Below are positions 24,434 to 48,933 of a stretch of DNA of 64,000 nt, piece after piece (the stretch's first letter is position 1; each line of letters starts with the position of its first letter). The notes beneath the pieces were generated by a model. That model did no database searches and was not told the DNA's origin. It saw nothing but the letters and a program-made list of their open reading frames with translations. The position numbers were made by a program, and so were the translations under genes. Source of the DNA: Terriglobia bacterium (GTDB lineage Bacteria > Acidobacteriota > Terriglobia > Terriglobales > Acidobacteriaceae); contig JAIQFH010000010.1 in NCBI GenBank assembly GCA_020073385.1, positions 1 through 64,000 on the forward strand. Reading direction: 5' to 3'.

Positions 24434-27400
24434 CTAGGCCGCTTCCACAATCTCGAGTTCCGTCTTCCCTCTTACGTTCTCCTCGCTTCTTATCCCACGC
24501 TCCACGGCATCGATCAGATACGGGCGGAGATTTGCGGGCGGAAGAATGTGATTCAGCGCGCCCACGCTGAGCGCCCGGTGCACACTGTGGATGTGGTCAA
24601 ACTCGTTGGCCAACTCTCCTAACTTCTCGGAATGCACGACCTTGAATAGTTCATTCCACTGGGCACGCAGCCGTCCTTTCTCAACGCCGTCGGCCTGAAG
24701 CATAGCCTGATTCAAAGCCTGGAGCCGCTCATCCTTACGAGTTCGCGCCTCAACCTCACCAGCGAAAACAACGGCCGCTGCGGGAGCGCCGCCGATGACT
24801 GAAGCGTACGTACCCTCCAGAGCCGCCACTTCAAGGTGATCGTTGAGAGCCCGCGAGAACACAACGTATGCGCCGCCGTGATACCTGGAGATCACGCAGA
24901 AGACGATCGGGCCCTTGAAGTTCACCACGGCCCTACCAATCTCTGCGCCGTACTCAAGCTGCAACCTCCGCATCGACTCCGGAGAACCGTCAAATCCTGA
25001 CAAATTGGCCAATACCACGACCGGACGATTGTTGCTGGCGGCATTGATGGCACGCGCCACCTTTTTCGAAGACTGCGGAAAGAGCGTTCCGGCGCACCAT
25101 TGGTCCGGTCCGTCGGCGGGGACAAATCCCATGCGGGGCACAGAGCGAGACTCGATACCGATAAGACATACCGGGTATCCGCCCAGGTGAGCATCCCAAA
25201 CCACGGCGGTCTCCGCCGCTCGCATCCCAGCCCAGCGCTCCAGGGGCGCGTGGTCCTGGTCTACAGTTGCCATCATTACTCTGCGAATGTCGAAGGGTCT
25301 CTTCCGTCCGGGATTGGTCTCGTTAGACAAGATCTCCCCAACCCGAGCGAACCCTTCTTCACCGTTCTTGTTGTGAGGATAACTCTGCACGTCGCGGTCG
25401 ATGGGATCGATTGTCTCAGCCCGGCGAGGAAACCTCTCCCCCGGCAAAATGTAGGTGTGCTCGTAGTGTCGAAAGAGAATGTGACACGCTTCGTCAAGGT
25501 CGCGCGCCCAGTATTGAGCCTGGCCATTGACGCCCATGATGCGGTCGTAGCCGCCAATGCCTTGATTGTCTTCCGCTGAAATGCCGCCGGAGTAGTCGAG
25601 TGCGCGCTTGCCGGTCAGCACCATCGCTGCCTTCGGCGTCATCACCAGAATGCCTCGCGTGTGCATCAGCATTGTGGCCTCGGCGTTCCAGTAAGGTTGG
25701 GCGCCCACGTTGATCCCGTTGATCAAGAGATTCACTTCACCGCCGGCTTGAGTGAACTGCACCAGCCTGCGCAAAACCTGGGCGATCCAGTCCATATTCT
25801 CGACGCCGCTGTCCATCGAGATCTTCGCGCCGGCTGATATCGGGAACCACTCTACCGGGACGCCTTTCTCTTCAGCTAAATCCAGGGCGCCGATGATGAG
25901 CCGACACTCTGCTTCGGCAAGTGCTCCCAAGTCTTTGCTGGGGTCACCGAGCAGCAGAACACGCGTCATACCCTCAGGATATCGATTGGTGAAATTGCGG
26001 ATGACTCCAACGATAATGTTCGCCTTGTTCTGGCCGTACGGGCGATTGACCGGAACTAATCGGCCTTCGGCGTCAAGATCGTACTCCGCAAAATCTCCGG
26101 GAGGAAATTCTGATCGTGTGTCTTCCCGAGCTGGAGTAAGCATCTTGATGATCTCGTACGGGTACACCATTCCGCGTTGGCGGACGCGAATGACTTTTTG
26201 ATCGTATGCGGTTAGCGGTTTGATCGGGAGGAGTTTGTCGGCAGGCCGGAATGTGATCAGCAGGCCACTACCGACCGGACTCGAGACGCGCACCACCATA
26301 TCGCGCAATTCTCCGGTAGCGGGGTTGGGAATCCGGGCACGTACTACCACCTGCTCCAGCCCCAGGCCTTCGGTCTCGGGCGCGAGTCTACGCACAATAT
26401 CGGTCAATTCATCCGGCTTGAGATTGAGCGGAGGCCAGACATATAGGAATACACGATTCCAATACAAACGCTCCTGAGGCCGGCGCCGTGACTGAAACAA
26501 CCGGATCGTCCCCAGCGCTTCCATAAACATGCGTTCCAGGTGCGGCAGCTGAACGATGCGCCCTGCTTCATCGCGCAGGGGGGTCACATCGCGCACTTCG
26601 GCAGCCGCAATCAAACGCTCATCCTTGGGGTTGTCGCGTGCAACGGCACGGAGAAGATATACGTCAGCGACGGACGGCAGACGCTCGATGTTGAAGTTGC
26701 TGAGGCGCCAGAGATGCAGCCGCTTACCGATCATCGGATGCACGCCGCGATACAACGTCTCCTCTTCGTATCCTCCGTCTCTTGGGCGATAGGTGAAGTG
26801 CTGCATGCCGCTCGCATATTGATCCTGGCTCACACCGGCAACTGCGACCACGATGCGACGGATCGGACGAGGAAACGCAATCTGACTCAGCATCGCCTGC
26901 ACTTCCACTTGTGTCTTTTCCGCCTCACTCAGCTTGCCGTTGGAGCAGACGTGAAAGTCCAGGACGACGTCGTGATTAGCCGGTACCGCAGCAATCGCGG
27001 GAAGCAGTGCATTTGCCACCGAAGAAAGACCGCGATATTCCGCGTAGGCAGCGAAGACGTGGATGCGCTTGCCCTCATGATCATATTCAGCGCAGACATA
27101 ACAGTGTCCGTCCACCGTCGATGCATTCGGATTCTGGAGAGTCCGAATCTTGTAATACCTCGAGGTGAGCACCTCCAACATCGTGAGACGCAGGCCGAGA
27201 TCAGCAGCGGGAAATCGCCCGGCAAACAGACCCGCAAGAAGTAGCGGACAATCGATCAGCGTGCGAATCCTTGCGCGGGCGTCAGCAGCGTCGGGGGCTG
27301 CTGCGAGATATGTAAGATGCTTTTCCGCTTCGTCGTACACTTTTTTCCACGCCTGCTCAAACAAAGGCTGATCGAAGTAGCGATAGCGCACTTCCCGGGC

Positions 27401-30031
27401 AAGATCGCTGACCGAAGGATGGAACTCGCGGGTGATCGAGATCATTCGGCCAAGGAGCGTCCGAAAAGATCCGTTAAGGAGTAGCTCCGAGGTTTTCACC
27501 AGCCTTAGGCGGTGCTCGAGAATGTCCAGAACACATGCCGCCTGCTGCTCCATTCGCTGGTGTGATTTGTAGATCCAGAGCAAGGTCTCCTTCAGATTGG
27601 GTGAGCCATCCAGAGCGCGCACACCGTAATGAGCCAAAGCGCGACCCAGCGCATCGGCAAAGGCCTGCGGGAGTCCTTCACCATTGGTCTCGACCATGCG
27701 CAAGTAGGAGAAGAGGTAAGCCTCCGCGCTGGGATCTTCGCCCGCAGTGTGACGGTCCACTTCCGGTTCACGTTGAAACAGAGAACATATGTCGACAAAG
27801 ATGTTGAGGATCTCGATCTCGGACTGTCTTATTTCTTCACTGTTCGCAGGGCAGAGCTGTCTCCAGGAGGAAAGCTGGCGGGCACCCCCTGGGTCGATGT
27901 CAAAACCCAGCATGAGTTGGCGGAGTTCCTTGAGGCTCTCTCGGCAACGAGGCATAGCGTCCTCTCCGTTGCCGCTCGAGCTTTGGGAAGCGCCAAATAC
28001 CACGCGGTGGAAGGATGTGATCGTATCGTCGCTACTCGTGGCTTCGATTTGGACCAGCGGGGCGCCGGTATCGACCTGCACGTTCGGCATCGTCATTACC
28101 CTTCGGACTTTGCCGGAAAACTGAGCGACCACGTGCGTTTCCATTTTCATGGCTTCGAGAACAATCAACGGGTCCCCGACGGCAACCGTATCTCCCGGCT
28201 TCACCGCAATCGAAACCACCACTGCCGGAGCAGGCGCGTGTACTATGCCACCGTCATCTCGATCCACCCGATGCGATACACCATCGACTTCAATCCTGGA
28301 GCTCACTCCTTGCGTGATCGAGACAACGTGGAAGCGACGCCCGAGGGCAGTGAGCCAACCCTCGAACTGGCCCAGACGGTCGGTGCGAGCCTCGATCCGC
28401 TTTCCATCGACTTCCACCCTGTAGTCTTGAGGGCCGGTTCGATAGGTCTTTGTCGAGTAGAGTTGTCCGCGATAGCTCAGCGCCAAGGTGCGGCCAATCT
28501 CGCTCCGCACCTGCGGACGGCCACGCGCAGCGGATGCATAGAACTGTGCTTGTTCCACAGCCAGCTCGGCTTCGTATGCATCGATCGCGGCCTGCACCAA
28601 GGCGACATCGGCATGCTCGTGAGAGAGATGATCGCCGGCCGCTGCTACGCGGTCGAGCCATCGAATGTCCGCTTGCCCGTTCAATACCTCACTGCGGTTT
28701 AGCAGTTCCAGCAGAAATGCTTTATTACTTGCCCCGCCCTTAATGACGACGACACTATCCTGGAGCGCGCGCCGGAGACGAGAGAGCGCCTCCCCCCGGT
28801 TTTGACCATAGGCGATGATCTTGGCGACCATGGAGTCGAAGTCTGCCGGAACGGTCTCACCCTCGGCCACCCCCGTGTCCACGCGCACGCCGGGACCCGT
28901 GGCAATCCGAAAGCGTTCGACCAAGCCTGGGGCCGCAGCAAAACCGCTATCGCAGTCCTCCGCATTGAGTCGAGCCTCAATCGCGTGACCGGTACTGCGG
29001 GGGCACTCCCCTTCCAGACGACCGCCCCGCGCAACATGAATTTGAAGTTTCACCAGGTCGAGCCCGGTTGTGCACTCGGTAACCGGATGCTCTACCTGCA
29101 AACGTGTATTCACCTCCATGAACCAGAAGCGATGGGTCTCCGGTTCGTAGAGAAACTCAACGGTGCCGGCATTGCAGTATCCGGCGGCCTTGCTTAGACG
29201 AACCGCGGCTTCGCGTATCGCCTCATCTTCCTGTTGGGAAAGCACCGGGGAAGGCGATTCCTCGAGCACCTTCTGGTGTCGGCGCTGTATCGAGCAATCA
29301 CGCACGCCCACAGCCCACGTCGTCCCGTAGCGATCGGCAATAATCTGGACCTCGACGTGGCGCGCGCCCTGTACCAGTTGCTCAAGGTATACAGTGGGAT
29401 CGCCGAAAGCCTTGGCCGCTTCGGCTCGGGCACTCTCAAAAGCCTGGGGCAGTTGGGTCGCAGATTGCACGAGGCGGATCCCGCGGCCGCCTCCGCCCGC
29501 CGTTGCCTTAATAAGGAGTGGAAAGCTCAGGCGCTCAGCCTGAGAGCATGCGTCCGCGAGAGTCTCGACAGGTCCGCCGCTCCAGAGGGCGACCGGTATT
29601 TGGGACTGCTCTGCCAGCCGTTTCGCGGCGATCTTGTCGCCAAGCTGGCGCATCACCTCTCCCGGAGGCCCGATGAACACAATGCCCATCTCGCGACAAA
29701 GATCCGCAAATGCCGCGTGTTCCGCCACAAAGCCCCATCCCACCCAAACCGCGTCTGCGCGAGCGGCTGCGAGTGAACGTTCGAGCCGCTCGTAATCGAG
29801 GTAGCTACTCTTGGGTCGACGAGTGTCTGGGTCGATAAATTGGGCGGCGCCGAGAGACACTGCCTCGTCTGCTTCGCGGACGAACATGGCATGACGGTCA
29901 GGTTCCGTGAAGAGCGCGATGGTGCGCAACGGCACACTGTGCTCGTCCCGGAACTCCCGCGCCGCGTGGATGAAGCGCATGGCGGCTTCGCCGCGATTGA
30001 CAATAGCAACCCGTTGGAATTCATCTTGCAT
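24434..30031 (-). CDS. Single-chain acetyl-CoA carboxylase (BC-BCCP-central-CT), eukaryote-like layout
   Basis: About 1865 residues from the ATG at 30031 (GGAGG 5 bases before it; an upstream TTG at 30049 is less likely). Order: biotin carboxylase (VNRGEAAMRF at the start, ATP-binding KATAGGGGRGIRL, EVNTRLQVEHPVTE); biotinyl domain with VLEAMKMETHV, Lys-629 being the biotin site; a ~550-residue central region; then a full carboxyltransferase with both halves (GAKISMDSGVEN, GGISAEDNQGIGGYDRIMGVNGQAQYW in part; GTLFPQSSKKVARAI, VVVLANLSGFDGSPESM). Most bacteria split these functions over four proteins; one chain of this size recalls eukaryotic ACC (~2200 residues). It makes malonyl-CoA and lies 41 bases after the Pfa-like synthase gene, so it probably feeds that synthase. 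Other acyl-CoA substrates are possible. Confidence 0.9.
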   Translation of the reverse strand: MQDEFQRVAIVNRGEAAMRFIHAAREFRDEHSVPLRTIALFTEPDRHAMFVREADEAVSLGAAQFIDPDTRRPKSSYLDYERLERSLAAARADAVWVGWGFVAEHAAFADLCREMGIVFIGPPGEVMRQLGDKIAAKRLAEQSQIPVALWSGGPVETLADACSQAERLSFPLLIKATAGGGGRGIRLVQSATQLPQAFESARAEAAKAFGDPTVYLEQLVQGARHVEVQIIADRYGTTWAVGVRDCSIQRRHQKVLEESPSPVLSQQEDEAIREAAVRLSKAAGYCNAGTVEFLYEPETHRFWFMEVNTRLQVEHPVTECTTGLDLVKLQIHVARGGRLEGECPRSTGHAIEARLNAEDCDSGFAAAPGLVERFRIATGPGVRVDTGVAEGETVPADFDSMVAKIIAYGQNRGEALSRLRRALQDSVVVIKGGASNKAFLLELLNRSEVLNGQADIRWLDRVAAAGDHLSHEHADVALVQAAIDAYEAELAVEQAQFYASAARGRPQVRSEIGRTLALSYRGQLYSTKTYRTGPQDYRVEVDGKRIEARTDRLGQFEGWLTALGRRFHVVSITQGVSSRIEVDGVSHRVDRDDGGIVHAPAPAVVVSIAVKPGDTVAVGDPLIVLEAMKMETHVVAQFSGKVRRVMTMPNVQVDTGAPLVQIEATSSDDTITSFHRVVFGASQSSSGNGEDAMPRCRESLKELRQLMLGFDIDPGGARQLSSWRQLCPANSEEIRQSEIEILNIFVDICSLFQREPEVDRHTAGEDPSAEAYLFSYLRMVETNGEGLPQAFADALGRALAHYGVRALDGSPNLKETLLWIYKSHQRMEQQAACVLDILEHRLRLVKTSELLLNGSFRTLLGRMISITREFHPSVSDLAREVRYRYFDQPLFEQAWKKVYDEAEKHLTYLAAAPDAADARARIRTLIDCPLLLAGLFAGRFPAADLGLRLTMLEVLTSRYYKIRTLQNPNASTVDGHCYVCAEYDHEGKRIHVFAAYAEYRGLSSVANALLPAIAAVPANHDVVLDFHVCSNGKLSEAEKTQVEVQAMLSQIAFPRPIRRIVVAVAGVSQDQYASGMQHFTYRPRDGGYEEETLYRGVHPMIGKRLHLWRLSNFNIERLPSVADVYLLRAVARDNPKDERLIAAAEVRDVTPLRDEAGRIVQLPHLERMFMEALGTIRLFQSRRRPQERLYWNRVFLYVWPPLNLKPDELTDIVRRLAPETEGLGLEQVVVRARIPNPATGELRDMVVRVSSPVGSGLLITFRPADKLLPIKPLTAYDQKVIRVRQRGMVYPYEIIKMLTPAREDTRSEFPPGDFAEYDLDAEGRLVPVNRPYGQNKANIIVGVIRNFTNRYPEGMTRVLLLGDPSKDLGALAEAECRLIIGALDLAEEKGVPVEWFPISAGAKISMDSGVENMDWIAQVLRRLVQFTQAGGEVNLLINGINVGAQPYWNAEATMLMHTRGILVMTPKAAMVLTGKRALDYSGGISAEDNQGIGGYDRIMGVNGQAQYWARDLDEACHILFRHYEHTYILPGERFPRRAETIDPIDRDVQSYPHNKNGEEGFARVGEILSNETNPGRKRPFDIRRVMMATVDQDHAPLERWAGMRAAETAVVWDAHLGGYPVCLIGIESRSVPRMGFVPADGPDQWCAGTLFPQSSKKVARAINAASNNRPVVVLANLSGFDGSPESMRRLQLEYGAEIGRAVVNFKGPIVFCVISRYHGGAYVVFSRALNDHLEVAALEGTYASVIGGAPAAAVVFAGEVEARTRKDERLQALNQAMLQADGVEKGRLRAQWNELFKVVHSEKLGELANEFDHIHSVHRALSVGALNHILPPANLRPYLIDAVERGIRSEENVRGKTELEIVEAA

Positions 30032-30072
30032 GAGCGCCTCCGTGAACAATGGTGCTTGTATCGGGGCGTGCG

Positions 30073-33000
30073 TTAAGCCACGAGAACGGCCTCTGCTGAC
30101 ATGATGGCCTGCAGGCTTTTCAGATTTTCTTTGTCAACGCTATCGGAGAGAGCTACTGTCTGGTAACCAATGAGACGTAGGTAGCAGTTTCCGTTTTCGT
30201 CAAGAACTTCAGCGTCGAAACTTCCTCGAACCTCGTCAGGGGTGACTACGGCATACAAGCGGCCATCGGCCACGTTCGGCGTATGGAACTCGGAGACCTG
30301 GCGAACGCGCTGTGGCAAACCCATTCGACCCTGTATGCCAAGCTCCCAGATCCCGGCAGTTTGGAAGCAAAGCTCGATCAGCCGTGGTGCGATGACCGTG
30401 CTTAACTCTGACGGATGGTGATTGGGGGGCAAGCCTTTCGTCAGCAAACCAACGACGCGCTTTCCATCCCACCATGCCTTCTCCACTACCTGATACGCGG
30501 GCCCATGGAAATAGAGTCGATAAATGTCGGCCGCTTCGACGCAGGTTCCGGCCGGTGCGACAAATGCCCTCGCACCCGGCGTCTGGACGGCTTGTCTCGC
30601 GAGCCGCACACGCGCAGTGAAGTGCGTCGTTGCTTGCGGCTCTTTAGAGTTTGGAAGAGAGCGGTAGCCGATCAACCGGCAATCCGCCACCAACCCATCT
30701 TCCTGCGGATGAATCTGTGTCTCAATCCGAACGGTGCGGGGTTCGCTTCTGTAAAACTTGAGGGGCGCGATGAAGCTTATGTCTTCGATCGCCTCGACCC
30801 GCCATCCGGGAAGGAAGCACAGAGCAGCTTCAGCAAATGCCTCGATACCCATTACGCCCGGCAGAACCGGAGTCCCATCAATCTGATGATCATGCAGGAA
30901 AGGTTGAGCCGGCGGGTCGAGTGTTGTTTCGACCGCGTAGCCGTCGTAAAGATTCATGGAGGCAACTTTACCCGCCATGGGCCTCATGGCTGGTAACTGC
31001 TTCCCTGCTTCTGCGGACGAAGGATCTAGTCCACCAGTCGAATCCCATTCATTGAGCAAAACGCCAAGACGCTGGCCGATCACAATCTCGCCTCGCGTCG
31101 CACCGGCGGTGAGTTCGCGACGGATCAGCGGAATGCCGGCTTCCGGCGTCAGCATGTCGATTCCGGCGAGTTCCATTATCTTTGGGATCGAGCCGCGCGT
31201 GGCCATGCCGATTCCACCCCACGCCGTCCAGTCAATCGCAATGCCGCGCGTCGCGGGACGGGTGGTACGGAAATTCGATGTGATCTTGCATAGCAGATCA
31301 TTCGCGGAGCTGTAGTCGGTCTGTCCAGCGTTGCCGAACCGGCCTGCAATCGAACTGAACGCCACCGTCGCACCGAGGGGCATTTCACCAATTGCATGCA
31401 GCAGATTGAAGAATCCGTCGCTCTTGACGTCAAATACTAGGTCAAATTCTCGGGAATCCTTATCTGGCAGTGAATGGCTTCGCTCAATACCGCCGGCATG
31501 CAGCAGCACGTCGATGCGACCGCTGCGCTGACGTACCTGGTCGATGACCTTGGCGACTGCCTCCGCATCCGTGAGGTTGACGCTGAAGTAGTGTGGCGTG
31601 CCACCGGCCGCGCGCACGGCATCGATAGCGCTTTGAGCAGCTTGTGCCCGCTCCAGACTCGCGAGTTCCTTTTCGACGAGAGCTGGAGTAGCCCGTTCGC
31701 CGCGGGTCTGGATACGCGCAAACAGATCGCGTTTGAGGTTTTCCCTGTCGTTCACGAAGCGCTTCAGGTTAGGATTGTCCGGATCGGGCTTCGGCACTAG
31801 ATCAAGCAGATAGAAAGTGCCGCCAGATGCATTGGCCAGATCGGCGGTGATGGCGGAGACGATGCTTCCAGCCGCGCCGGTAATAACGAAGACTGTGTTC
31901 TTGTCGAACACCATGCCCGGTCGCCCATCGGTGGCGGGCTGCTCCTGCAAGCCGACCGTCCAGCGCTGGCCACTCGTGTATCCGATCTCAACCGCTCCCG
32001 GATCATGCAACGTTTCGGAGATCAGAAGATCGGCAACTTCGTTCGGCCTGCGCTTCGCGTCAAAGTCGACTGCCTTCACGAGGCATTCCGGGCGTTCCCG
32101 CTTGTACGTCTTGGCAAAACCAGTTACAGCGCCACCAAGAGGAGCTACTGCTCCAGCGTCGTCATATCCGTGATGTCCGCCGAGTGTCGTCGCAGTCACG
32201 AGGAACGTGCCCGGGCGGCTTACATGCCCATACAACACACGCATGGTGGTGTGCAGCAACTTCACTCGCACCCGCACGGCCTCGCGCCAGACAGTGGAGT
32301 CCATCTTGCGAAGGTCGCCTTCATTGTCGAGCGCGGTCAACCAGAAAACTCCGTTCACTGGCCTAGTTGCGGTCCAGGCTTTGAGAATGCCGGTCAATGT
32401 GTCGGCATCTGGACTTCCTTCAACGCAAAATACCTTGACTCCCAGCTCAGTGAGGCGTTCCGTCAGCGCTTGGCCCACGCCGCCCTTGTCGGGCATGAGT
32501 ACCACGCTGCTGTTTTGATCAAGCTTCACTCCGGTTGCCTTACAGACGCTGAGCGGAGGACGCAATGTCGCTACCGGCACGCGTCGGGGAATGTTGTTGG
32601 CCGCATCGAGGCTGGCGAGCACCGGGCGCACAGGCTGGACAGAAACCGAAGCTGTGGGCGCCGCTGATCTCTGTTCCTCTGGTGCTGGTTTCACGGAGGG
32701 CACCGAGGCCTTCGCCCGCGCGGACCGGTCGTGGGCAAACTTGATCACATGCGCCAAGGTTGGAAAATCACGCAGTTTTAAGGTTTCATCGCGCGGAATG
32801 TTGTATGCGGCTCGCACGGCCGCAAACATCTCCGCCTGTTTCACCGTATCGACGCCCAGATCTGCTTCCAGATCAAGATCCAGATCCAACATGTCTTCCG
32901 GATATCCAGTCTTTTCGGCCACGATCTGGAGAACCATCTTCTTGATGGGATCATCGGAATCGGCCGTCGTCACGAGTGGTGCAGCAGCAGGCGCGAGCAC

Positions 33001-36000
33001 CTCGGACGCAACCGCCGTGATTGAGACCGGCAACGGTGATGCCGGTGAAGCCAGTCCCAGCGCAGGCGCGCCGCCCAAGTCCGGCCGCTTCTCGTACACA
33101 AATCGAATCACGTGGGCCAGCGTGGGATAGTCGCGCAGTTTGCGGTTCTCGTCGCGCGGAATGTTATACAGCTCCCGGATAGCCGCGAACATCTCCGCCT
33201 GCTTGACGGTGTCGACTCCCAGGTCGGCTTCCAGGTCGAGGTCCAGGTCCAGCATGTCTTGCGGGTATCCAGTCTTCTCTACCATTAGCGCCAGGATGCG
33301 TTCCTTCACGGGATCGCCATCTTTGGCCGAGGTTTCCGCGGGCACTGCCCGGATCGCTTCGGCTCCGTGACTCTCCTCGACTCTTGGAGCTAAGACTTCC
33401 GTCGCTGGAACCAGGATTGGCACGGCTTGCGCAGCTCGAAGGTCGGGCCGCTTCTCGTACACGAACCTGATCACATGGGCGAGCGTCGGGAAGTCGCGCA
33501 GCTTGATTTTGTCGTCGCGGGCGATGCCGTACGCTTCACGGATCGTGGCCATCACTTCCGCCTGCTTTACTGTGTCGACGCCCAAATCCGCTTCGAGATC
33601 GAGATCCAGATCCAGCATGTCTACCGGATAGCCAGTCTTCTCAGCAACCAGCGCCAACACCCTGTCTTTTACGGGATCGCCTTGCGGAGCCGGTGTCACA
33701 GGGGCTGGCGGCACTGACATAGGCGCTTGCACTTGCACCGGCGATTCGACAACCGGGCTCGGCGTTGGCACGTGTGGTAAGTCGGCCACGGGAACCGGCG
33801 TCTTCGGAAGCACGGGGCGAAGGACGTCATTGGATTTCTGAGCAGCTTCCACCACTCGCGCTGCTGATCCCTGATCGCGTATCCGCAGTGTGCGATGCAC
33901 GACTTCCAGTTCTGCCGTGGGATAACCTGCGACTCGGCTCAGCCACGCTTTCCAGCAGTCCTCGTCGGCAATGCGATAGGCATAGCCCAGGGCATTGGGC
34001 CGGCGACGGACACCGTCCTTCGTTGCGACCCAACGCAGCAGTGTCATGCTGATTTGCGAACCAAAACCCGCGCCGAGGCGGATCGCGTATTCGATTGGAT
34101 ACGCACCACCCTTGGACAAATTCAAAGTGCCTAGCTCGGGATCAATCTCTTTGAAGTTGGCGACGGGCGGCACGATGCCAGTTTCCAGCGCCTTCACTGC
34201 AACCACATCCTCGATTCCAGTCCCCATCGCGTGACCGGTCATACCCTTCGTGTTCGCGATCACTACCTGATCTGCGGCATCGCCGAACACACGACGTAAC
34301 GCGTGAATCTCAGCGGAGGCACTGCCCCCGCGTGCTGGAGTGTAGGTTTCGTGAGAAACAAATACAGTGCGGGGCGCGATCTGCTGACGGGAAATACCAC
34401 TATGAGCTTCGGCCTGTGCGATCAGGTCTTCCATCACCTGGCCGATATGCTGTACGTCGAGGCGCGTACCGTGGAAAGCGCTATTGGCAGTGGCAGTGCT
34501 TAACACTTCGCAGATCGATTGCATTCCGCGTTCACGGGCCGCGTCCGCGCTCTCGACCACAAGGCCTGCAGCGCCCATCCCGACGATCAAGCCGTGGCGA
34601 CGGCGGTCAAAGGGAGTAGCAGCTTCTTCGACCACCTCGTCCGTGGCGGCCGCACCGCTCGCCAGGAACCCAGCACCAAACCATTCGATCAAATGGTCGG
34701 AGGTAACATCGTCGGACGAAACAATGATTACGCGGCGGCACCGTCCGGCGTAGATCCAGTCTTGCGCCAGCGCCACAGCTTGCGTGGTGCTTGCGCAGGC
34801 CGAATTGATTTGAGTATTCGGACCGCGGGCCCCAATAAATTCAGCGAACTGCGAATGCCCCATGGGCAGCGTTCTGAGCAGGAAGCGCCGGTCGAAGACA
34901 TAAGGCTCCTTCTCGATGGCGTCCCGTAAGTCTTCCGCACGGCGCTCAATCTCATGTTCGAGGATGGAATCACCATTCGACTTCGCGGTCCGCGCAAGCA
35001 GGGTTTCCAGCATTCCCAGTTGCTCACGGCGGGAGTGATCCGTGTAGTAGCGCGACATTTCGTCCGCGAACGAGTCGCAACCCGGAAAGGCAGAAGCAAA
35101 AATCACGCCGGTGTCGTCGCGTAAGGCATCCGGGAGGGCCCATCGATCCGGCAACTGCGAACCTTTGCTCGTCGTCTTGTAGCGCATGACCAGCGGGATG
35201 CCAGCATCGCGTAAGGCATCGATGCCCACGGCAATGGCCAGTTGGGTGTCGCGGTCGAGAGCCGCCCTACGGTCGGCGGAAACGCCGAATTCACTTTCCA
35301 GGTCGAATGCTCCGCCCCGTCCCGCCAGCTTGATGACATCGGCTACGTTGTTGATAGTTTCGAATGTGGGCCCGCCATTGTCACTCTTCATCAGGCGCGT
35401 GATGTGCTTGTCGAGCATGGCTTTGCGCAAACGAGTCGGGATGAGATCGATGAATTGATCGCCGCGCAGGATGCGAGCGAGGTTTGCATCATCAAAGATG
35501 TGCTCGGTGCCCGGCAGACCCAGAGCAGCGCCTGTAATGACGACTGGCTGGTAAGCCGGACGATGGTCTGGTTCACCCTGAATTTTCCGAGCACGCTCAA
35601 GGACCTCAGCGAAGAGGTGGCCGAGTTCAGAGAAATGATCGCCATTCGCTCGCGTCGCCTGTCGGGTGGCGGGTGCGGAAGTCTTCGCGACGAACTTGTC
35701 CGATTCGAACGGCAATGGTGCAACAAGAATGGATGCTTGTGGTTTCTCCGCCGGAACCTCGGCAGTACCGCGTCCCAGGCCCGCCGCGTATAGGCCGCAC
35801 AGCGCCTGGTTGAACGATGCGATGTCGCCGAACTTCGGATGATTGGTGAACAGCGACACCACGTCGCCCCGATCGCCGAGAACATCCTCGGCAAATCCCT
35901 GCAGCGCCTTTTTCGGCCCAACTTCCACGAAAATACGTGCGCCGGCTTCGTATAGTGTGCGCAGGCCTTTGATGAATTGAACGGGAGAAGCCACCTGCTT

Positions 36001-38613
36001 GGCAAGAATGTCCAACATCTGAGGCACGACATCCGGGCCAGTGGGATAGAACTCGCCGTTTACGTTTGCAACGATCGGCAGGCGTGGTGATTCCAGATGC
36101 AGTCGCTCCAGTTCCTTCCGCAACGGTTGGCTCGCTGGTGCGACAATCGAGGTGTGAAAGGCGTGGCTGACCGGTAGCTCTGCGACGTCGAAACCAGCAT
36201 TCCTGAGAACCTCCATGGCTTGCGTGACGGCGTTGCTGGCACCACCAATTACCGCTTGATGTTCGCTATTAATGTTGGCGATCACTACGTAGCCGTTGAC
36301 CGTCTTCAGGATTCGTTCGATCTCATCCAGCGGGGCAAATACGGCTGCCATCTTTCCTTTGTCGGCAACTGCGACTTGCGTCATACCGCGCCCGCGAGCG
36401 CTTACCGCTTCCAGCGCATCCTCAAAGGGAAGAGCGCCCGAGGCGACTAACGCTCCGTATTCACCCAGGCTGTGTCCCATTGTCATGTCTGGCTGGATGC
36501 CATACGCGGCCAGCAACCGTGTCAGGGCGAGATCAATCGCGAGAACGGCCGGCTGCGTAATCGCCGTCTGTCGCAAATCGTCATCAGCCTTGGCAACAGC
36601 GTTGGGATCCGCCTGATCAACGAAGACAAAGTCGGTGAGCGGCTTGCCCAGCAACGGCGTCATTACTCGATCGGCCTCGGCGAACGTTTCAGTCACGATT
36701 GGTTCCGCGTCGCGCAGACCCCGAAGCATATTCACGTATTGCGAACCTTGGCCCGTGTAAAGGAATGCCACCTTGGGAGCCGGTCCTTGACCATGGAAGA
36801 TGCCTTGCGCGCGCAGCGCCTTCCAGACGACTGCCTGGTTAGCTGCCAGCGCCTTGAGTGCTTTACCGGCCCTGTCCGCCAAGTCCGCGGCATCGGTGTA
36901 ATCAATCGCCAGACGTTCGGGAGCTCGCAAGTCGGTTTCAACCGGTGCTGTGAGTGCAGGCGCACTGCCGGCTTGAGCATTCTTCATCACTACGCGCAGA
37001 CGCTCGGCGAGCGCAGCCTCTGAGGCGGTACCAATCACGAGCGCTCCGCGCAGCGGTGCCTTGCAGATAGACAAAGAAGCAGAGGACACCGAAACAGCGG
37101 GAACTTCTTTCGTATTCATGACTACCTCGTTGATCGCAGCTTGGGGCAGGACGCTGACGGCGAGTGACCGCTTTCCATTTCCAGTCAGCCTTCCGGGAAG
37201 GTGCTCTTCGAGAACGATATGGAAATTTGTGCCGCCAAAACCAAATGCGCTAACGCCAGCGCGCCGGGGACTGTCGGACGGAACGCTCCATGGTTTCAGT
37301 TCCGTATTGACGTAGAGCGGGGAGTGGGCGAAGTCGATGTCCGGACTGGGATGTTCGCAATTCACACTGGGCGGCAACACCTTGTCTCGCAGGGCCAGTG
37401 CGGTTTTCAACAGTCCCGCTGCGCCTGCCGCTCCTTTGAGGTGCCCGATGTTCGACTTGACCGAGCCCAGCGCCACGGAGTGGGTTGGAAGATGCTGACT
37501 ACTGAGCAAATTCGCCATGCATTGAGCTTCAACCACATCACCCACTCGAGTGGATGTGCCGTGTCCCTCAATCAATGTCGCGGTGGCGGGCGATAAGCCT
37601 GCATTCTGCCATGCGCGCTCGAGGCAAAACTTCTGACCAACCGGATTGGGCGCAGTGATCCCTTTTCCTTTGCCGTCGCTTGACGCCCCGATCCCACGGA
37701 CAACGGCGTAAATTTTGTCTCCGTCACGCTCGGCATCTGCCAGCCGCTTCATGAGGAAGATCGCGGAGCCTTCGCCCATCACAAAGCCGTCCGCCCCATC
37801 CGCATAAGGACGGGTGCCAGTCGCAGACAGCGCGCCAATCTTGCAGAACTTCACGAATGTCTGGGCGCCCATGTTGCGGTCGATGCCACCGGTGATGACC
37901 CCGTCGAAATCCTTAGCGACCAGACCTTCCACAGCAGCGCTCATGGCCGCCATGGCGGACGCGCACGCTGCGTCGCAAACGAAATTCGGGCCATGGAAGT
38001 TGTAGATGTTGGCAATGCGTCCGGCAATGCAGTTGGCCAACTCGCCGGGCATGCTGTCTTCCGTAACTTCGGGCAGGCGCTTGCCAATGCGGTCGTGCAA
38101 TTCTCGGGTAATGTCCGCGCGCCTGGCCTCCGGAAGGGCCGCGAAGCTCTCGCTCTCCGCGAGCTCATGCGCATACTCCGGGAAGTTCACCCGCAGCGCG
38201 GTCTGATAGTGTCTTTCACCTGCCATGGCGTTGCCAAGGATTACGGCGACTCGATCCGGGTCGAGCGGTCGCTTGGGGTAGCCGTAATCTTCCAGAGCTT
38301 CGCGCGTGGCCGCGATCGCCCACTTCTGTGCCTGATCCATGGCATCGGTCACTCGCGGTGGGATCGGTAGATGCCACTTCATCGGATCCCAATTCCATTC
38401 GCGCACCCAGCCGCCGATCTTCGAGTATGTTTTGTCAGGGGCGCTAGGATCGGGGTCGTAATAAAGAGCCGGATCCCAACGCTCCGGCGCAACGTCGGTG
38501 ATGCTGTAACGGCCCTTCTTTACGTTTTCCCAAAACGCGGCCACGTTGGCGGCATCGGGCAGAATGGCTCCCGCTCCAACAATCGCGATTGCACGATTGG
38601 CTGTGTCTTCCAT
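30073..38613 (-). CDS. Pfa-like iterative lipid synthase: KS-AT-KS-ACP-ACP-ACP-KR-DH
   Basis: A 2846-residue megasynthase from the ATG at 38613 (AGGAG 7 bases upstream). Domains: KS1 (~8-480; Cys-217 in DAACASA, EGHGTST, SNIGHLKGAAG); AT (~620-940; Ser-715 in GHSLGEYG); KS2 (~1040-1500; Cys-1273 in NSACASTTQ, VSHETYTPARGG, GMTGHAMG), complete rather than a Cys-less chain-length factor; three ACPs (~1640-1980); KR (~2130-2510; TGAAGSI, Ser in FSSIAGRFG, Tyr-2434); hot-dog DH (~2560-2840; His-2576 in HQIDGTPVLPG). There is no enoyl reductase and no thioesterase domain. The arrangement resembles PfaA of PUFA/secondary-lipid synthases, with KR and DH in the same chain. All three ACPs read LGVDTVKQ instead of LGIDS-type. 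The product is probably a long acyl chain for the neutral-lipid genes of the same operon. Confidence 0.92.
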   Translation of the reverse strand: MEDTANRAIAIVGAGAILPDAANVAAFWENVKKGRYSITDVAPERWDPALYYDPDPSAPDKTYSKIGGWVREWNWDPMKWHLPIPPRVTDAMDQAQKWAIAATREALEDYGYPKRPLDPDRVAVILGNAMAGERHYQTALRVNFPEYAHELAESESFAALPEARRADITRELHDRIGKRLPEVTEDSMPGELANCIAGRIANIYNFHGPNFVCDAACASAMAAMSAAVEGLVAKDFDGVITGGIDRNMGAQTFVKFCKIGALSATGTRPYADGADGFVMGEGSAIFLMKRLADAERDGDKIYAVVRGIGASSDGKGKGITAPNPVGQKFCLERAWQNAGLSPATATLIEGHGTSTRVGDVVEAQCMANLLSSQHLPTHSVALGSVKSNIGHLKGAAGAAGLLKTALALRDKVLPPSVNCEHPSPDIDFAHSPLYVNTELKPWSVPSDSPRRAGVSAFGFGGTNFHIVLEEHLPGRLTGNGKRSLAVSVLPQAAINEVVMNTKEVPAVSVSSASLSICKAPLRGALVIGTASEAALAERLRVVMKNAQAGSAPALTAPVETDLRAPERLAIDYTDAADLADRAGKALKALAANQAVVWKALRAQGIFHGQGPAPKVAFLYTGQGSQYVNMLRGLRDAEPIVTETFAEADRVMTPLLGKPLTDFVFVDQADPNAVAKADDDLRQTAITQPAVLAIDLALTRLLAAYGIQPDMTMGHSLGEYGALVASGALPFEDALEAVSARGRGMTQVAVADKGKMAAVFAPLDEIERILKTVNGYVVIANINSEHQAVIGGASNAVTQAMEVLRNAGFDVAELPVSHAFHTSIVAPASQPLRKELERLHLESPRLPIVANVNGEFYPTGPDVVPQMLDILAKQVASPVQFIKGLRTLYEAGARIFVEVGPKKALQGFAEDVLGDRGDVVSLFTNHPKFGDIASFNQALCGLYAAGLGRGTAEVPAEKPQASILVAPLPFESDKFVAKTSAPATRQATRANGDHFSELGHLFAEVLERARKIQGEPDHRPAYQPVVITGAALGLPGTEHIFDDANLARILRGDQFIDLIPTRLRKAMLDKHITRLMKSDNGGPTFETINNVADVIKLAGRGGAFDLESEFGVSADRRAALDRDTQLAIAVGIDALRDAGIPLVMRYKTTSKGSQLPDRWALPDALRDDTGVIFASAFPGCDSFADEMSRYYTDHSRREQLGMLETLLARTAKSNGDSILEHEIERRAEDLRDAIEKEPYVFDRRFLLRTLPMGHSQFAEFIGARGPNTQINSACASTTQAVALAQDWIYAGRCRRVIIVSSDDVTSDHLIEWFGAGFLASGAAATDEVVEEAATPFDRRRHGLIVGMGAAGLVVESADAARERGMQSICEVLSTATANSAFHGTRLDVQHIGQVMEDLIAQAEAHSGISRQQIAPRTVFVSHETYTPARGGSASAEIHALRRVFGDAADQVVIANTKGMTGHAMGTGIEDVVAVKALETGIVPPVANFKEIDPELGTLNLSKGGAYPIEYAIRLGAGFGSQISMTLLRWVATKDGVRRRPNALGYAYRIADEDCWKAWLSRVAGYPTAELEVVHRTLRIRDQGSAARVVEAAQKSNDVLRPVLPKTPVPVADLPHVPTPSPVVESPVQVQAPMSVPPAPVTPAPQGDPVKDRVLALVAEKTGYPVDMLDLDLDLEADLGVDTVKQAEVMATIREAYGIARDDKIKLRDFPTLAHVIRFVYEKRPDLRAAQAVPILVPATEVLAPRVEESHGAEAIRAVPAETSAKDGDPVKERILALMVEKTGYPQDMLDLDLDLEADLGVDTVKQAEMFAAIRELYNIPRDENRKLRDYPTLAHVIRFVYEKRPDLGGAPALGLASPASPLPVSITAVASEVLAPAAAPLVTTADSDDPIKKMVLQIVAEKTGYPEDMLDLDLDLEADLGVDTVKQAEMFAAVRAAYNIPRDETLKLRDFPTLAHVIKFAHDRSARAKASVPSVKPAPEEQRSAAPTASVSVQPVRPVLASLDAANNIPRRVPVATLRPPLSVCKATGVKLDQNSSVVLMPDKGGVGQALTERLTELGVKVFCVEGSPDADTLTGILKAWTATRPVNGVFWLTALDNEGDLRKMDSTVWREAVRVRVKLLHTTMRVLYGHVSRPGTFLVTATTLGGHHGYDDAGAVAPLGGAVTGFAKTYKRERPECLVKAVDFDAKRRPNEVADLLISETLHDPGAVEIGYTSGQRWTVGLQEQPATDGRPGMVFDKNTVFVITGAAGSIVSAITADLANASGGTFYLLDLVPKPDPDNPNLKRFVNDRENLKRDLFARIQTRGERATPALVEKELASLERAQAAQSAIDAVRAAGGTPHYFSVNLTDAEAVAKVIDQVRQRSGRIDVLLHAGGIERSHSLPDKDSREFDLVFDVKSDGFFNLLHAIGEMPLGATVAFSSIAGRFGNAGQTDYSSANDLLCKITSNFRTTRPATRGIAIDWTAWGGIGMATRGSIPKIMELAGIDMLTPEAGIPLIRRELTAGATRGEIVIGQRLGVLLNEWDSTGGLDPSSAEAGKQLPAMRPMAGKVASMNLYDGYAVETTLDPPAQPFLHDHQIDGTPVLPGVMGIEAFAEAALCFLPGWRVEAIEDISFIAPLKFYRSEPRTVRIETQIHPQEDGLVADCRLIGYRSLPNSKEPQATTHFTARVRLARQAVQTPGARAFVAPAGTCVEAADIYRLYFHGPAYQVVEKAWWDGKRVVGLLTKGLPPNHHPSELSTVIAPRLIELCFQTAGIWELGIQGRMGLPQRVRQVSEFHTPNVADGRLYAVVTPDEVRGSFDAEVLDENGNCYLRLIGYQTVALSDSVDKENLKSLQAIMSAEAVLVA
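32760..33690 (-). repeat. Triple tandem acyl-carrier repeat with an exact 121-residue period
   Basis: Three carrier domains within the synthase gene each contain YPxDMLDLDLDLEADLGVD-type core followed by TVKQAE. The attachment-position codons lie at 33571-33573, 33208-33210 and 32845-32847 (residues 1681, 1802 and 1923), exactly 363 bases apart. The cores are nearly identical, whereas the Pro/Ala/Val-rich linkers differ, so the array arose by duplication and the cores are held by selection. Tandem carriers are usual in Pfa synthases and raise output; Thr at the attachment site is not. Confidence 0.93.
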
Positions 38614-38673
38614 GATGACGCTCCTGTACAACCTATGGCAGGTTGCTTACGACAGATAGTCAGGCGTCGGGAC

Positions 38674-40347
38674 TTATGCGGCGAGTGCAGGCTTCGCTGC
38701 ACGGGCGTAGAGGACGTCGGCTATAAAGTCCATGTCAGAAATCAGGCCCGCCTGTGCACGGTGAACGGCCGGCAAACCTAAATTCGTTTCAAATGCAGAC
38801 ATCTCGGCATCACCAACGGCTCCAGCTCCAGTTACCCAGCGCAAGCCTTCTTCCGCGACCTTGAGTGCTGCTTCGCGGGAGAAGGTTCGACTCAGTGCCG
38901 CAAGTGCTGGCGCGTCAAAGCGCCGGTTGGCTTTCTCGTTCAACTTTCCCTCCGCGAGACAGGCGGCGCGACGAGCCAGACTGCCCGCGCTCTCCGCGTA
39001 AGCGATCCACTCGCCCAGGCGCAGCAGAATGTGTTGATAACGAGTGAGGCGTGCGACACGCGCTTTCTCCATGACTTCAGCCAGTGCGTGATGCGCCAGC
39101 GCCGCGAAATTCGCGCCTACGTTTGGATGCTGGGCATGCAACGCTTCCAACTCGCGCGCCCGCTCGTGATAGTGCTGGCCGCGCGTCTTCAGGTGGAGTT
39201 GCCAGCGGTCGCGGCTGATGGTCATCTCCATGATCTCGGACGTGCCTTCATAGATCGTGGTGATGCGCACGTCGCGGCTGATTTTCTCCACGATGTATTC
39301 ATGCGTGTAGCCGTAACCTCCGAGCGCCTGGATGCTGGCGTCGGCAGCCTGATTGCCGGCCTCGGTCGCCATATATTTCGCGATCGCCCCTTCGGTGTTC
39401 AGGCTTCCTTCTCCGGCGTCGATCCGCTCGGCAGTCTCTTCGATGTAGGCGCGTGCGGCTTCCAATCTCGCCACGTGGGGCACGATCAGCTTGTGCGTGT
39501 AGCCTTGCTTTTCCGAGAGCGGTGCTCCTGCCTGAATGCGCTTTGTGGAATACGGAATCGCACGATCCAGAGCGGCCCATCCTGCTCCGAGGCCGAAGGC
39601 CGCCACCATCAATCGCGTGTAGCCGAATACAGCCTGCGCCTGTATCAAACCCTGGCCTTCGACGCCACCAATCAGCCGGTCGGCATCGACAAAGACGTCA
39701 TTGAAGGCGAGGGCTGCGGTATTGCTGAGGCGAATGCCATGCTTGTCCTCTGGTTCGTCGTGGGTAAAGCCTTTTACATCTTTTTCAACGATGAACCAAC
39801 TCGGGCCGTTCGACGTGTTCGCTAATACCGTGTAAGCACCAGCGATTCCGCCGTTGCTGATCCATTGTTTATTACCGTTGATCTTGTATCCGACGACGCG
39901 TCCGTCTTGCAGGACTGGGTCGGCCGTGGTGCGAAGGGCTGCCAGATCGCTGCCGGCTTCCGGTTCAGTGGCGCCGTAGGCGAACAACAATCCCTCGTCC
40001 GCGATCCGACTCAGCCACAGCTTCTTTTGCTCCGGCGTGGCGCCCACGGTGATCGGATCGCTGCCGAGAAACGTTGCCAGGACGGAAGTCGCGACTCCTA
40101 GATCGATGCGCGCCATCTCTTCACAAATGCAGTAGACGTCGAACGTGCCTCCGCCCATGCCGCCGAACTCTTCCGGAATGAAAAGAAGTTGAATGCCCAG
40201 TTTGTCGGGGCTGCACATGTCGCGGACTATGTCGATGGGACATTCGTCGCGCGCATCGAGATCGATCAGCACGTCGTCGGGAAGCCGCTTCTTGGCAAAC
40301 TCTTTCAGAGACTTCACGCTCAGTTTCAGTGTCTTGTAGGCAAGCAT
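38674..40347 (-). CDS. Acyl-CoA dehydrogenase of the lipid operon
   Basis: A 557-residue flavoprotein, from the ATG at 40347 (GAGG upstream; the frame is open 39 bases further). N-terminal helical domain, then the FAD-contacting beta domain ([37 protein letters not shown]), the C-terminal helical domain and [17 protein letters not shown] with the catalytic Glu position, followed by a ~130-residue extra tail. It normally oxidises an acyl-CoA to trans-2-enoyl-CoA and gives electrons to ETF. EtfA, EtfB and a membrane ETF-linked Fe-S oxidoreductase are encoded directly upstream. Because the synthase next to it lacks an enoyl reductase, it may instead saturate, or introduce, a double bond in the synthase product; that is inference. 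Confidence 0.9.
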
Positions 40348-40357
40348 GAATGCAACC

Positions 40358-41344
40358 TCACTTGGCGGCAACGCCGCGCATTTCACGAGCTTGGTTGGTC
40401 AGTTCCGGCAGAAACTCCAGGACGTCATCCACAATTCCAACATCGGCCACCTGGAATATCGGGGCTTTAGGATTCTTATTGATGGCGATGAGGAACGGAT
40501 TTCCTTTGATGCCGGCGAGATGCTGGAACGCACCACTGATGCCGCAAGCCAGGTAGACCTTGGGCTTCACAGTCTTCCCCGATGACCCAACCTGGCGAGA
40601 CTTCTCCATCCATTTCGCGTCGACGACAGGCCGCGAGCAACTCACCGCCGCGCCCAGCACCTCCGCGAGTTCTTCGGCAAGAACCACGTTGTCCTTCTCT
40701 TGCAGGCCTCGCCCGATGGAAACCAGGACGCTATGCTTTGTGATATCCACATCGCCCGCCTCGGCAACGATGGTCTCGAGATAGCGGCGTCTTGCCGTCA
40801 AAGTGCCCACGGCAGAGGACTTGTCGATGACTACGCTCGAAATCGGAGTGACTTGCTCCGGCTTAAATGAGCCAGGACGGACGTTGATCACCGCGCCCGA
40901 GGAAACATCACAGCGCACATGAGCACTGACTTGTCCGCCGAATTCCTGTCGTACGACTCTGAGGAAGGCCTCCTGTACCCCATCAATTCCCAGCACGTCG
41001 GGGACGAAAGGTGAATTCAGCCTGATGGAAAGGCCCGGCGACAGATCGATCCCAAAATGATCGTGCGGGACCAGCAGAATACTGTTGCGCGGTAGAACGT
41101 TCACCAGCGCTTGCCTGATTAACTCGGCGTTGGGGTAGGAGAGCGCTTCGTTAGCTACCTTCCAGACCTCCCCATAAGAGGAAAGGAGCGAGTTACAAAC
41201 GGCATCGAGACCGGCACCCCAACCGGTAACAATTGCGGTGGGAAGTGAAGCGGGATCTATTCGTCGCGCTGCGGCTGCGAGTTCCGCGGCGGAATCGTCA
41301 ACGACGCCGTCTCTATGAATGATGTAGGAAAAAACGCAAGCCAT
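40358..41344 (-). CDS. etfA: Electron transfer flavoprotein, alpha subunit
   Basis: A 328-residue subunit of the ETF heterodimer. The FAD-binding C-terminal domain is clear: [27 protein letters not shown] in outline, then [19 protein letters not shown] and [22 protein letters not shown]. It carries electrons between acyl-CoA dehydrogenase (encoded 10 bases downstream) and a quinone-linked oxidoreductase (encoded upstream). The start ATG overlaps the TAA of etfB by one base, so the two subunits are translationally coupled. The length is normal. Direction of electron flow is not fixed by the sequence. Confidence 0.95.
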
Positions 41345-42129
41345 TATTTCAGCCCTCCCCTCGCTGCTACCAACTCAAGAACCGTGTGAGCGTTCTCTTC
41401 CCGGCTGCCGTGCAGCATGTCCGCTCCCTTGCTGAATGCAGGAACAAAGTAGTCCACGCGCCTCACCTTCGCGGCCACTTCTCCGACCGCGGCTTTCTCA
41501 ACTCCGAGGTCCGAGGCTCCTAACGTCGGGATCGGCACGGAAGCCACCTGCCGAATACCGCGCATCCCGACGTAGCGGGGCTCATTAATACCGGTCTGAA
41601 TGGAGAGGACGCACGGCAGATCGATCTCGCTGATTTCCCGATTGCCACCTTCGATCTCGCGGCTGACTTTGAGCTTTCCGTCTTCCGCGGTGATGGAATT
41701 CACAAGAGAAGCAAACGGGTAGTCGAGCATTGCCGCCAGCATTCCACCCACTTGGGCGGCGTCGTCGGCCTGGACCCCGGTCAGAATGAGGTCGTAGCGA
41801 CCTTTCCGCACAAAATCCTTGAGAATGGTCGCGATGCCCCGGCCGTCGGACCCGCTGAAGGCTTCATCAGAGATCAGCACGGCATGATTCGCGCCCATCG
41901 CTAATTCACGGCGTAGGACCTCTTCGTCATCTTCGCCGCCGACTGTCACCACGGTGACGTTGCCGCCGACACGATCGCGAATCTGCAGGGCCTCTTCGAC
42001 CGCGTAGTTATCCGCCTCATTCACCGAGTACACCAACTCTTCGCGCTCGATGTCATTCCCGGCCGCATTGAGCTCAATTTCGTTCTCCGAGGTGTCGGGC
42101 ACTCTTCGAACACAAACTAGAATCTCCAC
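41344..42129 (-). CDS. etfB: Electron transfer flavoprotein, beta subunit
   Basis: A 261-residue subunit binding AMP or, in bifurcating versions, FAD. I chose the GTG at 42129 (GGAGG 6 bases upstream); the family starts with a strand of the type VEILVCVRRVPDT. Characteristic segments are VNEADNYAVEEALQI, ELAMGANHAVLISD, LILTGVQADDAAQVGGMLA and LPCVLSIQTGINEPRY. Only two bases separate it from the stop of the membrane oxidoreductase gene. The pair belongs to the acyl-CoA dehydrogenase partner type by context. I cannot decide from sequence whether it is bifurcating. Confidence 0.95.
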   Translation of the reverse strand: MEILVCVRRVPDTSENEIELNAAGNDIEREELVYSVNEADNYAVEEALQIRDRVGGNVTVVTVGGEDDEEVLRRELAMGANHAVLISDEAFSGSDGRGIATILKDFVRKGRYDLILTGVQADDAAQVGGMLAAMLDYPFASLVNSITAEDGKLKVSREIEGGNREISEIDLPCVLSIQTGINEPRYVGMRGIRQVASVPIPTLGASDLGVEKAAVGEVAAKVRRVDYFVPAFSKGADMLHGSREENAHTVLELVAARGGLK

Positions 42130-42131
42130 GT

Positions 42132-45871: not shown

Positions 45872-45909
45872 GACAGGACTCCTATTCAGTTGCGCGACCA
45901 GAGCGCACC

Positions 45910-46197
45910 TCAGTTCACGAAAGAAAAACGATGCGCAAGCTTCACCAGTTTGAGCACCTTATAGACATCGACGCTAACGCCGCGTAACACGACCTTGACG
46001 GATTTCTCGTCGGCGATTCGGGCAAACTCTTCCATTGCTTGCAGGGCGGTTGAGTCGATTCGTCGCACCGAAGAGAAATCCAAGACCGCTTCGCCTTGAG
46101 TGCAGTCCAGATTCCTTCCTGCCTCTTGCAAGTCAAGAACGACGCGCTCTTCATCAATGTTCAGAAACACGGCAATCATCGCCATACACACCGCCAT
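45910..46197 (-). CDS. STAS-domain protein (anti-sigma-factor-antagonist-like)
   Basis: A 95-residue single STAS domain: EAVLDFSSVRRIDSTALQAMEEFARIA contains the strand-turn-helix with the Ser/Thr (DST) that is phosphorylated in SpoIIAA/RsbV-type switches, followed by VKVVLRGVSVDVYKVLKLVKL. It starts almost at once after the adhE stop and precedes WS/DGAT by 38 bases. In other systems such proteins control partner-switching sigma regulation or bind lipids and nucleotides. No kinase or phosphatase partner is encoded nearby, so its role in this lipid operon is open; local regulation is a reasonable inference. Confidence 0.82.
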   Translation of the reverse strand: MAVCMAMIAVFLNIDEERVVLDLQEAGRNLDCTQGEAVLDFSSVRRIDSTALQAMEEFARIADEKSVKVVLRGVSVDVYKVLKLVKLAHRFSFVN

Positions 46198-46200
46198 CCG

Positions 46201-48867: not shown

Positions 48868-48933
48868 TGCTGCCTCCACTGCGCTCTCTCACGTTCGCCG
48901 GGTGCACGCATTTTTCGCTCTTAATCTGTCTTC

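Follow-up and report, generated by a model that had tools for sequence, protein, structure and literature searches.

Does a carrier domain still work when the serine that should hold its phosphopantetheine arm is a threonine? This question is raised by a Type R-like lipid synthase (2852 aa) encoded on the minus strand, at positions 30073 to 38631, of a 64,000-nucleotide stretch of contig JAIQFH010000010.1 from a Terriglobia bacterium; this whole stretch is the DNA that was analyzed and is called the window below. Pfam gives the protein the order ketosynthase 1 (KS1), acyltransferase (AT), KS2, three tandem acyl carrier protein (ACP) domains, ketoreductase (KR), and dehydratase (DH), and the protein is conserved in relatives. 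An arm on serine counts as a defining trait of carriers, and a serine-to-threonine change is read as a dead carrier. The best explanation, and in our view a very probable one, is that the window ACPs are working carriers with a threonine-linked arm supplied by the phosphopantetheinyl transferase (PPTase) of the operon, in a malonyl-fed KS1/KS2-KR-DH synthase.

All three ACPs (ACP1, 33427 to 33684; ACP2, 33064 to 33321; ACP3, 32701 to 32958; all on the minus strand) read LGVDTVKQ at the attachment site, with the threonine codons ACA (33571 to 33573), ACC (33208 to 33210), and ACG (32845 to 32847), just as a first-pass annotation of the window had reported. Their PF00550 scores of 35.6, 28.4, and 27.4 bits all lie above the cutoff of 20.8, while at the attachment position, where the family has serine, threonine is found in three of three domains. 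An AlphaFold model of ACP1 has an ordinary ACP fold (mean predicted local distance difference test score, 90.3), with Thr38 as the first residue of helix II. The genome of the window has 11 PF00550 matches, and the 8 outside the synthase all have serine (GGHSL, GGDSL, LGADSL, LGIDSL, and similar), which excludes a genome-wide code or sequencing effect. No serine codons were found at the three sites, and threonine recurs in independent assemblies; a sequencing or code artifact was therefore rejected. Threonine is also found in the synthase carriers of other genomes of the same genus and across phyla, so that its presence in the window is not due to chance.

The first-pass annotation considered one synthase only, and the threonine is in fact clade-wide, in a cluster type that has been published. 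We surveyed named genomes with a query consisting of KS1-AT alone, so that recruitment was not biased by the carriers, and read the carriers with a hidden Markov model masked at the site residue, which reports serine where it is present, so that serine was not overlooked. Among the best 80 of 177 relatives, 57 have threonine carriers, one (L108, a Heimdallarchaeota metagenome-assembled genome [MAG]) has serine, and in 22 the available DNA shows no carrier, many of these loci being cut by contig ends. The threonine loci are labeled Acidobacteriota, Actinomycetota (e.g., Nonomuraea, Actinoplanes, Trebonia, and Mycobacterium sp.), Myxococcota, Chloroflexota, Gemmatimonadota, and Gammaproteobacteria. 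When 61 genomes, that of the window included, were searched, the synthase was found in 14 (E 1e-100), all of the window's genus, and every carrier read in their loci has threonine, with two to four per protein. The carrier sequences of one locus of this genus (G007, L003) are identical to those of a "Candidatus Sulfotelmatobacter" MAG locus (L033), and the window therefore probably belongs to this acidobacterial genus. One genome has a synthase of near-equal length with a single in-frame TAG (L004, G033:C202:18101-26659) and a second, stop-free copy (L016). In a plasmid collection, a single record, from Nonomuraea gerenzanensis, matched the query over at least 80% of its length; with the carriers alone, three records were obtained, and these added nothing.

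Samples of individual phyla gave KS1-AT relatives of mixed synthase types in 16 of 301 Chloroflexota genomes (E 1e-140), 76 of 235 Myxococcota (E 1e-120), 24 of 119 Asgard, the phylum of the Heimdallarchaeota MAG (E 1e-100), 20 of 247 Acidobacteriota (E 1e-120), and 5 of 346 Actinomycetota (E 1e-120). From these samples, 56 stretches were chosen to take in distant relatives, and their carriers were read. With the loci pooled, the site is threonine in 281 and serine in 19 of 300 distinct carrier domains, the 300 being those of 505 that score at least 30 and are near full length (domains below 30 were left uncounted). The 281 threonines are encoded by ACG (127), ACC (118), ACA (19), and ACT (17). 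Counted instead by nonredundant polypeptide, fragments included (n = 127), 115 have threonine only, 9 have serine only, 2 are mixed, and 1 has an artifactual arginine; the latter, the sole residue other than serine or threonine in a scored domain (L027), was dropped because its stretch has an ambiguous base. The mixed arrays combine both residues within a single polypeptide, as S,T,T in L186 and as S,T,S in L189. Around the threonine, the residues E-7, D-5, L-4, G-3, D-1, K+2, Q+3, and A+4 are kept at 99 to 100% in threonine domains. The first-pass annotation had taken the three different codons of the window to show selection for threonine; by themselves they do not, but invariance across phyla does support selection. 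Recent copying of one array, which it had excluded as well, is rejected here on the grounds of the spread across phyla.

Serine is taken here as the ancestral carrier residue, as is general for carriers. In a KS1 tree of 52 rows (IQ-TREE; support given as bootstrap/SH-aLRT; rooted by a chosen outgroup), 46 rows form one clade with support of 100/96, made up of 43 threonine-only proteins, 2 mixed proteins, and 1 serine protein, with Asgard archaea inside. Six serine proteins of the polyunsaturated fatty acid (PUFA) type, reading LG[IV]DSIKRVE/D, fall outside. The serine protein within the clade (L164, Heimdallarchaeota) is sister to an Asgard threonine protein (L182). The first-pass annotation had asked whether threonine would form a coherent clade once Pfa-like synthases were aligned, and it does, with one serine and two mixed proteins inside. 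The 52 rows are what was kept of a wider quick tree of 66; the 14 left out are L195, L196, and L180 (long branches), L165, L166, and L110 (no readable carrier), and 8 threonine rows.

Condensation by a cysteine-based KS requires thioesters, and thioesters require the phosphopantetheine thiol. In the window synthase, Pfam places KS1 at aa 13 to 486 (37174 to 38595), AT at aa 623 to 916 (35884 to 36765), the KR core at aa 2327 to 2472 (31216 to 31653), and DH at aa 2559 to 2831 (30139 to 30957), all on the minus strand, as is KS2, which was located from the sequence with approximate limits (33952 to 35544). We aligned the active sites of 75 distinct threonine synthases, each of at least 2400 aa. 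The cysteine and both histidines of KS1 are kept in 74 of 74 aligned proteins, with one gap, and those of KS2 in 75 of 75 each; the AT serine is present in 75 of 75 and the AT histidine in 70 of 75, the KR tyrosine and serine each in 73 of 74, and the DH histidine in 71 of 72, with three gaps. With its three residues kept, KS2 looks like a second working KS, although the Type R description calls it a chain length factor. Decay of the synthase was rejected on this evidence; the first-pass annotation was right that these residues are intact, and they are both present in the window and conserved in relatives.

The window PPTase gene (23610 to 24383, minus strand) is the Sfp-type gene that the same annotation had placed in the operon, and it matches PF01648 with 63.7 bits against a cutoff of 25 (E 1.9e-17). 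Its model aligns with 4mrt (Sfp-CoA-PCP; Z 20.0, root mean square deviation [rmsd] 3.0, 213 residues aligned) and with 2cg5 (Z 18.6, rmsd 3.5, 225 aligned). Between it and the synthase gene lies a single-chain acyl-CoA carboxylase (24434 to 30049, minus strand; Pfam) that joins biotin carboxylase, biotin carboxyl carrier protein, and carboxyltransferase parts (BC-BCCP-CT). A PPTase is found at the operon end in 47 of 50 testable loci. Among 47 genomes scanned for PF01648, 34 could be tested, the contigs of the other 13 ending too early, and 33 of the 34 have a match at most 2.5 kb from the expected operon end, loci without the gene in the examined stretch being counted on match position alone. 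Twenty of the 33 (L112 to L131) had been picked for a known PPTase match, so that their 20 of 20 is no fair count. The exception among the 34 is L075, which is without carriers: on this Myxococcales chromosome, the synthase match (L075, 10001 to 14602) goes no further than KS2. Neither an ACP nor a KR or DH can be detected, and the sole PF01648 match of the genome is located elsewhere. Further loci, fetched by KS alone, have the PPTase in 14 of 16 cases that were long enough. Within L112 to L131, the carboxylase is at the equivalent place in 17 of 20 loci, and the PPTase follows it or, in the 3 without a carboxylase there, follows the synthase; in 7 of the 20, the PPTase is encoded on the other strand and points toward the operon. 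Fusion of the PPTase domain into the synthase polypeptide (in L181, into the carrier subunit) is seen in 15 further loci of neighboring clades, myxococcal and Asgard; 13 of these are threonine only and 2 are mixed, and Pfam confirmed the fusion in the two proteins scanned (L188 and L167). A 247-aa open reading frame (ORF) of Nonomuraea gerenzanensis was rejected as a PPTase because it is in the wrong reading frame, the real PPTase being in another.

All 53 linked PPTases compared retain the catalytic D113, E115, E157, and K161; the set includes those of the all-serine Heimdallarchaeota protein, two of mixed proteins, and that of L101, for which no carriers were seen. When 21 other PPTases of threonine-synthase genomes are placed in a tree with linked ones, 20 of the 21 fall in two groups (support of 99 and 100) that are free of linked ones; the linked PPTases are separate in the sense that they do not mix with these 20. 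The exception, the AcpS-like L268, joins the linked PPTases on a branch 4.45 long and was excluded from the comparison of positions. Where the other PPTases mostly have phenylalanine, at positions 90, 149, and 150, the linked ones have aliphatic or small residues; K48, E118, R120, and F124 likewise differ, all of these differences being confounded by phylogeny. We imagine that small residues at 90, 149, and 150 could leave room for the methyl group of threonine, with the same confounding. In several linked PPTases, most of them actinobacterial (L112, L113, L115 to L117, L119, L120, and L126), S[LI][TS]DRAG stands in place of the SxSH of others, the motif histidine being aspartate.

Some genomes have few carriers other than those of the synthase, or none. 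Ten genomes were scanned for PF00550 (E 0.05) and 18 for PF01648, and the sites were read. In two Asgard genomes, all detected carriers have threonine (four of four in G678, two of two in G723), and the sole PF01648 match is fused to them. A genome from the Myxococcota sample (G626, L179) has threonine in five of five detected carriers, no other PF00550 match, and its sole PPTase match adjacent; it may be incomplete, or it may have no fatty acid synthase other than the Type R-like one. Others are less uniform. G735 has four threonine carriers, one degenerate repeat (LGIDSELF), and one PPTase; G662 has four threonine carriers, one degenerate repeat, and a 92-aa ORF with serine, and G750 has three, one degenerate repeat, and a 66-aa ORF with a serine motif, each of these two genomes with one PPTase, which is fused. 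Two threonine carriers in G670 and one in G753 are each accompanied by a short ORF without serine at the site; G691 has S,T,S and one PPTase, fused. The Heimdallarchaeota genome G408 (L164 and L240) has serine in four of four carriers and two PF01648 matches, the second of which is short (a 132-aa ORF), whereas the threonine-only G678 and G723 have just one.

Taken as a comparison of sequences, these results lead us to infer strongly that the threonine carries the phosphopantetheine arm. In favor of this are the near-invariance of threonine over deep divergence, the adjacent or fused transferase, the retention of the sites that use thioesters, and the presence of serine and threonine side by side in two arrays; moreover, in two Asgard genomes the sole detected transferase has only threonine carriers to modify. 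The first-pass annotation had left two options, and attachment to threonine, served by the transferase, appears strongly favored over carriers that work without an arm. The latter would have the threonine domains as structural modules, with a free serine carrier borrowed in trans and served by the linked transferase. The window genome does encode AcpP-like serine carriers, and the additional small ORFs of G662 and G750, each with a serine carrier-like motif, could be taken in the same way. Domains without an arm should drift, and yet nothing other than threonine or serine occupies the site in the 300 well-scoring domains, the few repeats with other residues scoring below 30 and looking degenerate; the neighborhood of the site is just as firmly kept, mixed arrays exist, and G678 and G723 have no detected serine carrier, each having one PPTase fused to threonine domains. 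We therefore regard borrowing in trans as unlikely. That the transferase acts on some other conserved hydroxyl group in the domain is scarcely credible. Thr-21 and Thr+29 relative to the site, which are threonine in 98% and 96% of threonine domains, would be candidates, but they vary to serine in 2 to 4% and are placed away from where helix II begins, whereas the site threonine aligns exactly with the serine of mixed arrays and outgroups, and the alignment of threonine domains has no conserved serine or cysteine column elsewhere in the carrier domain. Very unlikely, too, is the reading of threonine as a neutral historical relic, not selected, that the synthase tolerates although its modification is slow or partial. 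The exchange of serine for threonine is chemically conservative, and one origin accounts for nearly all cases, as such a relic would have it; however, serine is one base change away, and still threonine persists across phyla, in arrays that reach six domains, and is encoded by four codons. Return to serine is rare (within the 46-row clade, one serine protein and two mixed ones; perhaps also L180).

Several points nevertheless weigh against attachment to threonine. E. coli ACP S36T is neither modified nor functional according to PMC3340395, where it serves as a negative control, and its lack of modification would also suit carriers without an arm; in spinach ACP-I, the change of Ser38 to threonine or cysteine is cited as loss of function in PMC9310384. 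A serine-to-threonine change is thus not neutral in the systems tested. One Heimdallarchaeota synthase has serine in four of four carriers, so that threonine is not strictly required, and a long-branched serine protein, L180, also falls inside the threonine clade in the 66-row quick tree. Some Asgard arrays contain degenerate repeats with alanine, asparagine, or serine at the site (scores below 30; L184 and L229), indicating that single domains can be lost. Two threonine synthases (L157 and L200) have no PPTase downstream in the available DNA. Finally, G678, G723, and G626 may be incomplete, and their carrier and PPTase counts are those of detected genes.

If threonine does carry the arm, the chemistry might run as follows. 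A phosphodiester would join the 4'-phosphopantetheine to the hydroxyl oxygen of the threonine that opens helix II, the place of serine in other carriers. The transferase of the operon (or, in neighboring clades, the one fused to the carrier polypeptide) would move the arm from coenzyme A (CoA) onto this secondary alcohol. Malonyl-CoA would presumably come from the adjacent carboxylase, and AT would then, in the most plausible order, load malonyl onto the threonine-linked arm. KS1 and KS2 probably extend the chain iteratively, KR and DH process it, and the product is likely to be a long acyl chain.

The genes upstream on the minus strand were all identified by Pfam. An acyl-CoA dehydrogenase (38674 to 40386) is the usual upstream partner of the synthase, a relative being present in 74 of 80 loci (L032 to L111); it is followed by the electron transfer flavoprotein (ETF) subunits EtfA (40358 to 41344) and EtfB (41344 to 42144), an Fe-S oxidoreductase with a cysteine-rich CCG domain (42132 to 44249), and a wax ester synthase/diacylglycerol acyltransferase (DGAT; 44276 to 45871). 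The dehydrogenase and ETF may act on the enoyl or acyl product. Beside the operon, the region from 44276 to 52963 holds the DGAT gene together with genes for an AdhE-like protein, isocitrate lyase, and malate synthase, a gene set that suggests a storage lipid and glyoxylate-shunt island. One can speculate, from the DGAT and AdhE-like neighbors, that wax ester or triacylglycerol is the destination in Acidobacteriota. On the other side, a glycoside hydrolase family 106 gene (alpha-L-rhamnosidase; 20570 to 23383) comes after the PPTase gene on the same strand.

More broadly, it seems likely that nature has a second way of attaching phosphopantetheine to carriers, through threonine, which would have arisen once in a clade of iterative lipid megasynthases of several bacterial phyla and Asgard archaea. 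A lineage of transferases inherited along with the synthase, and adapted to a secondary alcohol, would put the arm in place, and threonine attachment is perhaps the sole carrier chemistry in some Asgard cells. If so, the serine rule is wrong, and many synthases that would otherwise be flagged as inactive are active. There would also be a natural ACP-PPTase pair that ordinary, serine-specific PPTases may not touch, useful for orthogonal labeling and pathway engineering. This raises the question of what lets the linked transferase accept a secondary alcohol. We found no report of a natural threonine carrier in the openly available (PMC) literature, subscription papers aside.

How does the window compare with what is known? 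As described by Shulse and Allen (2011, PMC3098273), the Type R secondary lipid (Pfa-like) synthase is one protein, KS-MAT-CLF-ACP(3-6)-KR, followed by a PPTase gene; it is ranked there among the uncharacterized types, and a term search of the text finds neither "threonine" nor "serine". The window cluster matches this description. Its single PfaA homolog has the defining KS-AT-KS2-three ACP-KR order, to which the window adds DH; the PPTase gene is downstream in both, and in the Type R cluster of Koribacter an acetyl-CoA carboxylase gene lies between synthase and PPTase, as in the window (PMC3098273). The second KS is named a chain length factor (CLF) there, while KS2 of the window keeps its cysteine and both histidines. 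Type R hosts were reported from three phyla and include Acidobacteria and Chloroflexi (PMC3098273), whereas threonine relatives also occur in Actinomycetota, Myxococcota, Gemmatimonadota, Gammaproteobacteria, and, with a fused PPTase, Asgard archaea. Named Type R members come from Koribacter, Solibacter, Roseiflexus, and Elusimicrobium; in KS trees without these strains, two MAG loci of Solibacteraceae, L056 and L061, group with the window synthase.

The PfaA of omega-3 PUFA synthases (TIGR02813), with its KS-AT-tandem ACP-KR order, is the best NCBIfam match of the window synthase, although the 940.6 bits obtained are below the curated cutoff of 1010.1; the score against the type I polyketide synthase model NF045894 (634.2 bits) is likewise below its curated cutoff of 1740. 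The sampled PUFA-type relatives have serine in the motif given above, where the window has threonine. As carriers, the window ACPs resemble PF00550 members in their profile match, their ACP fold, and the placement of the site at the start of helix II, and differ from the solved relatives PigH, 2lol, and 2ehs, all with serine at the site. The window PPTase, for its part, shares its fold and its catalytic Asp/Glu/Glu/Lys with the Sfp-type enzymes Sfp, AASDHPPT, and PptT, while the linked PPTases stand apart from the other sampled PPTases in the tree and at the seven positions named above, a difference confounded by phylogeny.

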